64,000 nt of DNA from Polytrichum commune. Lineage: Eukaryota > Streptophyta > Polytrichopsida > Polytrichales > Polytrichaceae. The first letter of the stretch is position 1; each line of letters opens with the position of its first letter. The stretch is taken from positions 71,627,554 through 71,691,553 of the forward strand of contig OX485803.1 in NCBI GenBank assembly GCA_950295325.1. The letters run 5' to 3'. The notes beneath the pieces are model-generated. The model ran no database searches. It was not told the DNA's origin and saw only the letters and a program-made list of their open reading frames with translations. Of this stretch, positions 25,760 through 54,912 are shown one piece after another. Position numbers and translations under genes: made by a program.

Positions 25760-27312
25760 TTCGTTGGATCTGTAGAGAGAATGTTAGATGAAGTAGGTTT
25801 TAGAGCTCACGTGTGTCGTGGCAGATTTTACTTGGATATATCACCTGTTCAAGCGCTCAATGCTGAATCTATGTGATTAGTATTTGCGGGACATTTGCAA
25901 AAGCGTGTGGCGGTTCAATGCGGGATCACTCAATGCTGTAAACACACAATGTAATATACCACAGGGTTGAGGCAGTTCAATTCATTAGTGCAAGTAATTT
26001 AATTGGAGTGATTTCCTCGAGCATCTGCTTAAAGGACGTATCTGCTCACAACTCAGTGAATGCACATAGTAGCGGAGCTAACGTAGACATAATTAATTCG
26101 CCAGAGTGGATATTTCTTGCGCCACACCGGGGATGGCAGCCAAATTTACCAGAGCCAAGAGATCACAAAAAGAGGTCTGCAATCTACTGTTGGCGACCGA
26201 ATTCAAGAAACTTAATATCTAAAGGAACATGATAGATGGAAAGCATAACAGAGTTCACTTGACAGACATACGACAAGCTGAACTACACTCATATATAGCT
26301 GCAGTAAAAAATATCGCCAGATCTGTATATTTGTATACAAGGTTCGCAGCAATACAAGAAGAGGCGGAATGGAGGGCAAGAAAGAGGAATTTGAATGAGA
26401 TGGAGGGAGATCAAGAAGAAAGGGAAAGGGAAGGGCAGAGAAGGAGCAACCGTTACAAAGGGGAAGGCGACAGTTATGATGCCACCTCATTGTCTTATCC
26501 ATTGTCCAAACTGCCGATCCATATATGTACGCACGAGTCACCATCCCTGCGAGCAGGGTAGACAGCAAAACTGATGTGAATGAACGTCCTCGAGAAGCCG
26601 ATGATATAGCGGGATGATAGTCGAGAACAACGAGATGACTCGAATGGCCTTTCCTAACCGTAGCACAAAACGGAGGCTCGAGCCACCATAACTACGGGCC
26701 CCAACAGCAACAGCAGCACAGTCACTTGGTGCGAAGATTTGAGAACTCTCTCTGCAATTTTCAAGGGAACATAAACTCGCTGAAAAGGCTCGTCAAAGAG
26801 GATCGGACCTGGTTATTTTGTTCTTCGGCTACATTGATTTAAGATTTTCCATGAGCAGTAGTTTGCAGTCGAATTCTTTTTTGTCTAGGGCTCGGTTGAC
26901 CAGAAAGAAGGAACTCCTTTTGTGAGAACGAGGTCCAGAGACAGAGCATTCATATTAACCAAAGGACTGTTCTGTTACTTGGTAGTGTTAAGTTGCAATA
27001 TATGAGTTGTTTAGAAAGATCATCAGCAATGCTTCCTAATGTGTCTTTCCAATCAAATTTGAACCACTTATTGTTACGATGTGGACGATCGCGCTCAATG
27101 TCCGGGTATCTACTTATTACATAGAGAGCATGGCCAAGAAGAACGATTTGCTGACGTTCTTAAACTCACATTTGCCACGAGGACTTGCAAGCAGAACTTG
27201 AACGACTGCATGATTTGATGTTTCCTGGTTGAACATTTTGGCTGAAGGTTTGTGCTCTTCACTTCCCGCTAAACTTGTGTTTGCAGACATATAGTAGATA
27301 CCTTCTCGCCAC

Positions 27313-28257
27313 ATGTTGAACGGGTTCTACGAAGGGAGAAGGAGCGCCATGAATCTCCGTGGATCTTTAGATCCGCAATCGTTTCGTTGGTCACGAAATT
27401 TGCGAGTTCATGAACATAATCAGCAAAAGCTTGAAAAGAGTATGGAATCGAAAAGGAACAGAAGATCGAAAAAGCTCCTCGATGACCAAATGATAAGTCC
27501 GGAGGAAGAAACCTCATCACAAAGTCCTTCGCAGACCGCTTCTCAGACTCCCGTGCAGTCTCCTCAATCACCAAAAGTTAAGAAAGCAGTTCGAGAAGCC
27601 AAGAAACTGCTCAGAATCTTGAATCTTGATCACATGATTTCCGATGTTGATGAAGAAGAGGTAGAGAGAAAATCTGAACCAAAGAGATTGAGTAAAATGA
27701 ATGGGAAGAGAGAGAAGAAGAGAACTGACACGAGGAGAGTAGATTGGTCACCCAATCCACGCGGATCTGACGGCGAAGACTCCGAAAAGGATAGTGACAA
27801 CTCCTCAGTGTGGTCGTCATCCAGAACAATTAGCTGTACCAAAGTACTGCAACAGAAGCTAAACGAAAGAAGGGAAATCAATGCACGAATATCAGGGCAA
27901 CATGTGGTTCGAAAACGAGAAGATACAGATATGGCTGTAGAAATGACGCGAAATAGCAAACCTGTGCCAAGAGATGGTCAAAATGGAAAAGATCCGAACG
28001 GGAAATTTGTCCAGACTAAGGACGTTCCAAACGAGCAAGTGCAATTGGAACTGGAAAGTCTAAGGAACACAGTGGCAGAGATGAAGAAGTATCATGCAAA
28101 AGCCATCCTCGAATTTACAGAGAACCTTGAGCAACATACTCGACAGATTGGACTTCTGCATAAATCAAACTCAAAGTTGTCTCTGAAAGTGGAGACTCTG
28201 GAGAAAGAGATGAGGGTCCTCAGTGCCATGCAGTTTGTTTCCTCATCGTTGCCCTGA
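27313..28257 (+). CDS. Hypothetical coiled-coil protein, 314 aa, intronless
   Basis: I do not recognise the family. The single open frame is long for this AT-rich window and has a coherent protein composition. Residues 1-60 are basic (KRNRRSKK). Residues about 65-90 are a Ser/Gln/Thr/Pro-rich stretch with repeated SQSPSQT-like steps. Residues 90-105 hold a basic amphipathic segment (KKAVREAKKLLRILNL). The middle is charged and Ser-rich, likely disordered. Residues about 241-305 have heptad-like spacing (LELESLRNTVAEM, then LSLKVETLEKEM) typical of a coiled coil. No signal peptide or membrane segment is seen. The start is the first Met of the frame; an in-frame Met at residue 13 is an alternative. 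It runs toward the 3' end of the minus-strand KNOX gene. A nuclear or cytoskeletal scaffold is possible, but that is a guess from composition only. Confidence 0.68.
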   Translation: MLNGFYEGRRSAMNLRGSLDPQSFRWSRNLRVHEHNQQKLEKSMESKRNRRSKKLLDDQMISPEEETSSQSPSQTASQTPVQSPQSPKVKKAVREAKKLLRILNLDHMISDVDEEEVERKSEPKRLSKMNGKREKKRTDTRRVDWSPNPRGSDGEDSEKDSDNSSVWSSSRTISCTKVLQQKLNERREINARISGQHVVRKREDTDMAVEMTRNSKPVPRDGQNGKDPNGKFVQTKDVPNEQVQLELESLRNTVAEMKKYHAKAILEFTENLEQHTRQIGLLHKSNSKLSLKVETLEKEMRVLSAMQFVSSSLP

Positions 28258-31934: not shown

Positions 31935-32007
31935 GCCGTCCTAGCTCAGTTGGTAGAGCGCGAGGCTCTTAACCTCGTGGTCCAGGGTTCGAGCCCCTGG
32001 GGTGGCG
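31935..32007 (+). tRNA. tRNA-Lys (anticodon CUU)
   Basis: All cloverleaf parts are visible. The 7-bp acceptor stem GCCGTCC pairs with GGGTGGC (two G-T wobbles). The D arm is GCTC-AGTTGGTA-GAGC. The anticodon arm CGAGG-CTCTTAA-CCTCG places CTT at positions 34-36. The T arm is CAGGG-TTCGAGC-CCCTG, and the discriminator base is G. The A box and B box promoter elements are intact. There is no intron and no encoded CCA, as expected for a eukaryotic nuclear tRNA. It lies between the KNOX gene and the Cys-rich gene. A TTTT run about 35 bases downstream may serve as the Pol III terminator. Confidence 0.95.
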
Positions 32008-52433: not shown

Positions 52434-54912
52434 ATGGGTACCCCCATCAGATTTGACTTGTACTGTCACAGATGGCACTCTCTAAATCTTACGGTAAGCC
52501 TTCTTTTTCTTCTTCTCTCTCTCCCAACCTCATCCCACGCGGGTCGCCAAATTAGCACCCTCAACCTGGCGTCCATGCGCATCGCCACCGCGAAGTCGCA
52601 GCTGAAGGAAGCAGCCGGAAGCACCAAACTCATAGTCCTGCAAGAGATTTGTAGCACCGAGCTAGCCGGCTTGCAAGATGGCTTGACCACCTCCCAGGCG
52701 AAGGTGATCTCCGACCCTGACGATGCACGCAGGGATCTTGTAGCGATCGAGAGCAATATTGAGACATGCATCGCAGCCATGGGAAAGGACCAAAGCTCCA
52801 CAGACGCATATGCGCTTCTCACAAAGGTGGAGCAGAGCGTGGTGTCAGCCGAGAATCTGATCGATCAAAGTGTCACCAAACCTGAACAAGATCTCACACA
52901 GAAAGTTCTCGATGAGGACGGTGGAATACAAGAGCCAGACTCAGAAACAGGTGCGGCCATGGCCGATGTTGGAGGCGATTACTCGCCACCGCAACTGCTG
53001 AGCACTGATGGCGGTCCAATCGAAGGCCAAGAATCATCACCCTCGGGTCCTTTGCAGGGGACTCTGAATCTTCATCCTCTAGCTCCCACGGTGAACATGT
53101 TCATGGAGGAGACGCAGGTAGACTATTGCCCAGGCCATGTCCACTTGCAAGGCTCCTCAGCCATCATCCGCCTCGACAGTGAGTGCGGGGGAAAATTCCA
53201 TACGCACAAAAAATACTCCTCCGGTGTGTTTTCTGTACGGATGCGGGCGCCTTCGAACGCACCTGGTGTTAGCAATAGCTTCTACATCTCCTCCAACGAT
53301 GATGGTGCAGACATGATCAGTTTCGACTTGATTGGGAACCTGCCGAGCCGGGTGCTCACAGCCTACGCTGTGAATGGAGTTCACTCTGGGACACTCGAGA
53401 CCTTTCACATGGATTTCGATACCTCGCTCCACTTCCATGAGTACACCATCAAGTGGGACAAGGTAAACTCACCTGTGCTCATTCTTTCCCATGTCTAAAT
53501 TTTTCCATGTCCTGAAGGAGGTTGCTGTATTGTATCTGTGCACACAACCCCCTTCCATTTCTCAAGAATCCAAGTTTTGTGCTGACTAACCTCCTTGGCG
53601 GTCGCTTTCCATCCTCAAACATCCAAGTAGCCGAGAGAGAACTAATTGTCGCATACGAGCGTACCTCTCACTCATCCAACGCAAGAACTTGGTCCCTTAG
53701 AGGTTTGCGAATAATCCATCTCAAATGGCTTCGAGTAAACTAATGCGGTGTCATTGTAATCACCTTCAAGAAGGTTGATCATTGCCTTCTACAAAAAAGA
53801 ACAAAGCTCTTGTAAGTGGAAGTATCCGGGTGGATCGATTACCGAATTTATTTTCAAGCAGCCATGTGGGAATCAGGTGCTAGTCCACACCCGTTCAAGG
53901 TGTTCACCTTTGAAAGGAGGCAATAAACTTCAGGGGGCCTCTAGAATTAGACCAACTCGAAGATGAAGCAACACCAGAATGCATCCCCAGTGGCAACAGC
54001 GGAGTCATCTCTTTCTTCATACTTCGAAGAGCTGATTCATGTGTGATTTCGCAGGAGAGCGTGGTGTGGATGGTGGACAGCACCGTGATTCGCACTTTGC
54101 GATCGTCTCGTGTGCACGCGTTTCCTTCGAAAGCTGGCCATGTGTATGGATACTCCTGGGACGCGTCCTACGTCGCAGAGGGCGGGTGGGCGGGGAAAAT
54201 CGATTGGGACGCTGGCCCGTTCCTTATGCACTACAACGATTTGCAAATCACGTCGCCATTGTCAGCGGGGCAATGGAGGGTGCCTCCACAGCTTCCAATT
54301 CGAAGAGACGTCCCGCTCCCAGTTCACCCTGTGGTGATCGACTATTGCGCTTCCAACATCGGAATTCGCCAGGACGCAAGCATGACGATCGCATTCGACA
54401 AGTTCGGCTGCGGTGGCCGCATCCGAAGCTTGAAGGCTTACTCTTCGGGGAGATTCACTGGTAGCATCAAGTGCCCGGATGGTGATACGAGCGGATTGCT
54501 CACCAGCTTGTATGTGTCATCCGGAGAGGGAAGCAGGAACCAAGACGAGATAGATTTCGAGTTTCTCGGTGACAACAAGCGCATCGTGCAGACGAATTTC
54601 TACGTGAATGGAACCGGGGGGAATGAGCATTGGGTGGAACTCGATTTCGATTGCTCCCACAGGTTCCACACTTACTCCATCCACTACAACAAGCGGAAGA
54701 TCCAGTGGTTCATCGATTCCAAGCTGGTGAGGACGGTGCTCCGGGACCAGCAGATCGCCAAGGAGAAACCTTACCCAGTCAAGAATGTGTTTCTGTATGC
54801 TTCAGTGTGGAATGCTTCCAGTGTGAACGATGGCCTGTGGACGGGCAAATGGCATGGCTCAGGGTTACCCTTTGTTGCCAAATTCAAAGATGTCACAATT
54901 CAATACCCATAA
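52434..54912 (+). CDS. Secreted PMEI-like / GH16 / GH16 fusion (XTH-type), two exons
   Basis: Exons are 52434-53462 and 54055-54912, with GTAAAC donor, TTTCGCAG acceptor and phase 0, giving 628 residues. A signal peptide is seen at residues 1 to about 36 (hydrophobic TVSLLFLLLSLPTSSHA). Residues about 45-150 resemble the second half of a PMEI/invertase-inhibitor helical bundle (ICSTEL and SNIETCIAAMG). An acidic Ser/Pro linker follows. GH16 domain A, about 215-430, crosses the intron; its active-site strand reads DMISFDLIGN. GH16 domain B, about 445-628, has the canonical DEIDFEFLG (E508 nucleophile, D510, E512 acid/base in family terms) and ends at FKDVTIQYP without the Cys-containing XET_C extension. 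Domain B should act on beta-glucan or xyloglucan in the cell wall. Domain A has Met, Ser and Asp at the three catalytic positions, so it is probably a binding or structural domain. The TTG three bases upstream is not the start; the ATG is. Confidence 0.88.

Follow-up and report, generated by a model that had tools for sequence, protein, structure and literature searches.

The plant EG16 proteins, among them the endo-beta-glucanase PtEG16, act on mixed-linkage glucan and xyloglucan, and to our knowledge they are generally devoid of a signal peptide. Published descriptions have EG16 connecting the licheninases of bacteria with the XTHs of plants (PMC6572274) and its enzymes as heterotransglycosylating and of broad specificity (PMC5722204, citing McGregor 2017), and an algal group, EG16-2, has been proposed as the ancestor of XTH (PMC9569819, PMC12737017). 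The preliminary description of the locus reported here had stated that XTH and EG16 proteins normally have a single GH16 domain. This stands, with one exception found: the poplar XTH gene model PagXTH26(A) likewise has two GH16_XET domains in one gene, and its authors compare it with two fused XTH genes (PMC11870306). Tandem GH16 domains alone are therefore not new. PagXTH26(A) is set apart from the present gene by its description as an XTH and not an EG16-type protein, and the accessible part of that paper mentions neither a dead domain nor a helical region. The plural "GH16 domains" of a sunflower paper refers, in the text available, to the domains of two proteins (PMC13417130). Among the papers listed in the literature searches, we found neither a tandem of EG16 type nor a dead GH16 domain, nor any comparable helical fusion.

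The window analysed here is a stretch of 64,000 nucleotides of Polytrichum commune (contig OX485803.1, positions 71,627,554 to 71,691,553), and searches outside it covered 408 Mb of genome, which we judge from its content (21 XET_C and 14 PMEI places above cut-off and at least 110 pectinesterase matches) to be that of a land plant. A spliced frame of 628 amino acids plus stop lies on the + strand of the window, as do all its features given below. It is made of exon 1 (52434–53462, residues 1–343) and exon 2 (54055–54912, residues 344–628 and the stop), joined across a GT-AG intron of 592 bases (53463–54054) with the donor AAG|GTAAAC at 53462/53463, the acceptor TTTCGCAG|G at 54054/54055 and both junctions in phase 0. 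The order of the encoded parts is a signal peptide, a helical region of 114 residues, an acidic linker, GH16 domain A and GH16 domain B, and no XET_C follows. Exon 1 carries the first three and the start of domain A; the remainder of A, a short linker and the whole of domain B are on exon 2. The Pfam-A scan of the protein returned PF00722 in two stretches (whole-protein E 4.8e-70) and no other family, thus confirming the single spliced frame with two GH16 domains that had been proposed. Both exons, of 343 and 285 codons, are free of stops, and none of 5000 single-base shuffles of either was stop-free. The third-position G+C was 0.63 in the part encoding the signal peptide and helical region, 0.69 and 0.71 in the two parts of domain A, and 0.68 in domain B. 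The two linkers were lower, at 0.40 and 0.54. For total G+C, the intron had 0.45 and the whole window 0.40.

The splice junction was predicted from the frame, the splice signals and the domain homology across it. The intron interrupts domain A, and the alignment to VvEG16, the EG16 of grape, passes through the junction (residues 226–343 in exon 1 and 344–412 in exon 2). It is very unlikely that the gene model is wrong and that two transcripts, or an exon not seen, part domain A from the helical region or from domain B. The frame of exon 2 is open upstream to 53914, as such a model might have it, but domain A is continuous only across the proposed splice. Moreover, the second half of A and all of B are in one open exon, and the signal peptide, the linker and the first half of A in the other, so domain A would be broken if the locus were divided into two ordinary genes. 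Homology of this intron to that of XTH genes was considered and rejected because the two differ in place and phase: the intron in domain A falls after the second codon past a W in phase 0, and the XTH intron, as read in two XTH genes (L018 and L021), inside the sixth codon past the W in phase 2. The intron sequence is mostly made up of short dispersed repeats, with matches of 73–94% identity at 53506–53755 and 53849–54028; such matches make up 52 of the 54 places listed (40 of 1320 candidates scored), and some of them form series spaced by about 220–335 bases on C2 and C3.

Domain B (residues 430–628; 54313–54909) is nearest to EG16. Exon 2 gave E 3.3e-45 with PF00722, and among solved structures it matched VvEG16 (5sv8, 5dzg, 5dze and 5dzf) over the residues of domain B with E values of 4e-49 to 6e-49, XTH-type structures being far behind (1e-22 to 1e-19). 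The "cellulase" entries 2uwa-c and 2vh9 are presumably nasturtium XTH-type enzymes. The active-site motif DEIDFEFLG at residues 507–515 (54544–54570; E508, D510 and E512) is intact in the sequence and in the alignment to VvEG16, so that domain B has the ExDxE of EG16 together with VvEG16 (PDB 5dze/5dzg/5sv8) as its nearest solved structure, which shares with it the intact motif and the want of XET_C. When columns fixed in three single-domain EG16 rows and also in at least 80% of XTH rows were taken as common to EG16 and XTH, domain B kept 27 of these 30. The absence of an XET_C tail, which had been noted from the sequence, was borne out by the Pfam scan of the protein and by a genome scan with PF06955, in which none of the 26 places listed (21 over cut-off) falls in the fusion gene; the gene thus lacks the XET_C that follows GH16 in an XTH. 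In common with XTHs it has the GH16 fold and motif and a signal peptide, and KIDW stands close to the end of domain A, as it does in some XTHs of the genome. The absent XET_C, the other place and phase of the intron and the tandem of GH16 domains set it apart. Domain B is of EG16 type, but the protein as a whole is no ordinary EG16, which has one GH16 domain without N-terminal addition; the fusion differs in having two GH16 domains, one of them dead, a signal peptide, a helical region and a linker. The two single-domain EG16 genes of the genome show none of these additions.

Domain A is encoded by 53109–53462 (residues 226–343; PF00722 positions 4–120, E 5.2e-18) and 54055–54261 (residues 344–412, with WDASY..EGGWAG, placed by alignment to VvEG16), and VvEG16 is the closest solved relative of this domain as well (E 1.6e-26 when spliced). 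At the place of the active-site motif, as aligned to EG16 and XTH, it has DMISFDLIG (residues 293–301; 53310–53336), so both motifs were found in the spliced frame as they had been reported. The three catalytic positions E, D and E are replaced by M294, S296 and D298, respectively, which upholds the view of domain A as catalytically degenerate. The rearranged motif could in principle serve another catalytic activity, kept or gained, and DMISFD does retain the acids D293 and D298; such an activity is highly improbable, as the nucleophile and the acid/base glutamates are both replaced and methionine cannot act as nucleophile. Domain A keeps 21 of the 30 columns shared by EG16 and XTH, and its losses are 5/8 in the motif region vs 4/22 elsewhere. 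The latter comprise N to A at column 91, R to L at column 100 and S to Y at column 159, together with one change from L to M. The 18 columns kept outside the motif include W, Y, H, D, G and P residues, and the tryptophan columns 121 and 161 are retained. As judged from sequence, domain A is a maintained pseudo-domain, having the pattern of a fold that was kept after the loss of catalysis.

The end branch of domain A, at 1.2–1.3 changes per column, is about twice as long as that of B in both the 9-row and 20-row trees, as would be seen if the gene were decaying or unexpressed, the tandem accidental and domain A on its way to disappearing. We consider this quite unlikely, because the exons are stop-free, the splice sites intact and the third-position G+C of A similar to that of B, and domain A has held on to its shared columns despite the divergence. 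A neutral stretch of the length of domain A with that many changes per column would be expected to have acquired stops, and from the intact frame we infer that constraint has acted on it.

The signal peptide (residues 1–36; 52434–52541), judged by hydropathy and by eye, has the hydrophobic core LTVSLLFLLLSL with a Kyte-Doolittle value of 2.61 over 12 residues and a likely cut after SSHA, the cleavage site also being placed by eye. The claim of a secreted protein thus agreed with the hydropathy at the N-terminus. The other two EG16-type genes of the genome, both single-domain, are at 4.98 Mb on C3 (two exons) and at 17.56 Mb on C1. Their best 12-residue hydropathy in the first 40 residues was 1.22 and 0.67 vs 2.61 for the fusion, and their starts (MASSKAEG... 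and MVLLHRLINQ...), which are in-frame ATGs chosen by eye with room for an upstream leader exon, show no clear signal peptide. The paralogue on C1 (C1:17556966–17557487) encodes seven glutamines from CAA repeats directly before DEIDFEFLG, and seven histidines come before its probable start.

The helical region (residues 37–150; 52542–52883) had been likened to the second half of a PMEI domain. The proteins of this family have four conserved cysteines and a hairpin (PMC8990755), in addition to the four-helix bundle. By sequence no such relationship was seen. Pfam and NCBIfam scans up to E 10 gave no family for the region (the filters of the Pfam tool drop most matches above 0.1), its phmmer search against PDB yielded a single chain, from a bacterial surface protein (E 0.23), and the list of 15 PMEI matches in the genome does not include it. 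A profile of the 14 PMEI domains of the genome gave it 3.6 bits, a score that 199 shuffles equalled or exceeded (2000 made; 1993 sequences scored in all). A three-block PMEI motif score was equalled or exceeded by 1374 of 5000 plain shuffles and 1339 of 5000 with the cysteines fixed; the third block of this motif came from 10 of 14 PMEI rows, and 13 of the 14 rows, which were also the training set, scored 78–129 and the remaining one (L016) 10. The search of the genome for relatives of the region returned itself and one match at E 7.9. The assignment to PMEI by sequence was therefore rejected, and an eye-drawn fit to the PMEI motifs given in the published text (PMC3741192) is worthless alone, since all the sequence tests are negative. 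The preliminary description had made its PMEI reading depend on a profile search of residues 40–150, and no similarity was found there. By its sequence the region is not a member of the PMEI family.

The predicted fold gave a different picture. Two AlphaFold runs were made from the single sequence without an alignment (residues 37–169 and 36–150), and both returned four helices, with pLDDT of 69 and 77 and pTM of 0.54 and 0.69 in the best models; the four other models of each run were poorer (pLDDT 49–63 and 50–56). Among the solved four-helix bundles compared, PMEI and invertase inhibitor entries took ranks 1–8 by Z in both runs, with Z of 16.1–17.8 and 15.7–17.3 and deviations of 1.6–2.2 Å over 106–114 residues. 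The next-best match was an engineered ROP bundle (Z 14.2 and 14.8), and five mostly helical models that lack a clear match typically reach a best Z of 14. The best Foldseek E values were weak (0.017 and 0.024), and copper storage proteins and a ferritin-like entry were mixed among the PMEIs. The bundle superposes on the AtPMEI1 entries of the PMEI/invertase inhibitor family (PF04043) over residues 31–149 at 1.8–2.2 Å, and the match begins at AtPMEI1 residue 31–32, past the hairpin. Hence the likeness spans the whole four-helix bundle and not a second half as had been thought, and what is missing is the N-terminal hairpin and the first cysteine pair. Apart from Cys73 and Cys112, no cysteine occurs from the end of the signal peptide to the start of domain A; these two are 39 apart vs 40–66 for the matching third-fourth pair in the 14 PMEIs of the genome (40–50 in 13 of them, 66 in L016), and no hairpin pair with the spacing of the genome PMEIs occurs in the region. 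An up-down-up-down bundle like that of PMEI may be present in it, but the four cysteines with a hairpin (PMC8990755, in the part available) are not, and it differs from PF04043 proteins further in having no sequence match and in being joined to GH16 and not to a pectin methylesterase. On the models, the region is probably PMEI-like in fold, and is probably a bundle with one disulfide, Cys73–Cys112. The suggestion that it ties the enzyme to pectin found no support: no residues linking it to pectin or enzyme binding were seen, and the accessible text of PMC8990755 has these domains binding their enzymes and is silent on pectin binding.

These features together led us to a tentative proposal, to which we give somewhat less than an even chance, that the gene encodes an EG16-type beta-glucanase rebuilt for export to the wall, in which the dead domain A holds glucan beside the active domain B. 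In this mechanism, the signal peptide would direct the fusion protein to the wall, where domain B would cut or re-join beta-glucan as EG16 enzymes do. Domain A, with its fold and part of its cleft kept and tethered 17 residues before B, could hold the chain as a built-in binding module. The helical region, acting before or beside this step, would be a folding, sorting or protein-docking module and no pectin binder. That domain A has become a glucan-binding module, as the earlier account had put forward, is plausible from its sequence; it is a guess, because some cleft-side residues are also gone and, with columns 91, 100 and 159 changed, the cleft may no longer bind glucan.

The same changes in the cleft, lying beyond the catalytic three, would suit a regulatory or scaffold role in which domain A, packed against B, governs access or stability, or one in which A and the helical region form a pro-region that is cut away once the protein has been secreted, with no glucan binding by A itself in either case. 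The predicted fold of the N-terminal module resembles the pro-domain ahead of many pectin methylesterases, and of the 14 PMEI domains that pass the cut-off in this genome, 12 have a pectinesterase match (at least 110 in all) no more than about 2 kb away and are probably pro-domains. RRLL-like motifs act as processing motifs, and none was seen in the acidic, low-complexity linker of 75 residues (residues 151–225; 52884–53108), which has 14 D/E, a single K/R and no Pfam match. Domain A, too, retains the tryptophans of columns 121 and 161 together with the fold's Y, H and D columns, and we regard a regulatory or pro-region role as doubtful. The PMEI domains at C3:28791892 and C1:68908403 had no pectinesterase among the matches listed nearby.

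The origin of the two domains was addressed in trees of 20, 9 and 7 rows. The 20-row tree held domains A and B, the two paralogues, VvEG16, NXG, ten XTH rows, and one Bacillus and three alphaproteobacterial rows as outgroup. The ten XTH rows came from 12 loci; L017 and L022, which did not have three good exon matches, were dropped. Neither L024 nor L025 was used, and the bacterial relatives, from one scan with 3 loci, served as outgroup only. Both B (93/92) and A (89/83) were placed between EG16 and XTH, in a tree of few rows and long branches. This is where EG16-2 would lie, and it is a lead, as the tree holds no EG16-2 row. In the 9-row tree, A was beside XTH and not with EG16 (86/85), and the 7-row tree of fuller rows resolves no grouping. 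Grouping A and B with the three EG16 rows in one clade was disfavoured (p-AU 0.035), this group having been picked after the 9-row tree was known. These placements are to be read with A as a long branch, the XTH rows starting after the first 27–35 columns, and no algal EG16-2 row among them. Holding A and B as sisters was rejected neither with 20 rows (p-AU 0.145) nor with 7 (0.257). Private columns do not decide on internal duplication because A and B share no more of them than either does with other rows: A has 4 with B and 4 with ExoK_L041, and B has 4 with VvEG16 and 4 with one paralogue. A cysteine pair at columns 10 and 30 is found in both A (C232/C251) and B (C441/C462), and in none of the 5 other rows covering column 10; native VvEG16 (5dze) has the first cysteine of it. 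The pair fits either an internal duplication or a parallel adaptation to secretion, and it would suit a secreted setting.

Taken with the systems described above, the fusion is rated as an enzyme of EG16 type that carries a pseudo-domain and to which a leader and a helical module have been added, known from one genome. A bolder formulation, which we hold to be rather unlikely in its entirety, is that a plant lineage made an EG16-like domain into a non-catalytic holder of glucan and joined it to an active EG16 as well as to a signal peptide and a stripped-down PMEI-like bundle, whereby a leaderless enzyme became a wall-resident, self-positioning glucanase. An exported EG16-type protein with a dead sister domain would allow the action of EG16 in the wall to be tested, and the dead domain A would allow testing whether plants use the GH16 fold as a module for binding. 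Should the helical region really descend from PMEI, the PMEI fold would be in use outside the control of pectin methylesterase and invertase.

A fragment of domain B was also observed elsewhere in the genome, at C3:36122914–36123185. Its 272 bases align to 54465–54742 of the window with 264 of 278 aligned columns identical, and it carries the active-site motif in an open frame of 125 codons with a 6-base in-frame gap. Nothing else of the fusion gene was found near it among the matches listed, and it is, as it appears from this identity, a recent copy of a gene fragment. Within the window, the longest open frame after the two exons of the fusion gene is one of 319 codons at 27298–28254 on the + strand, and the sole RNA family match over the gathering score is a tRNA-Lys (CTT) at 31935–32007.
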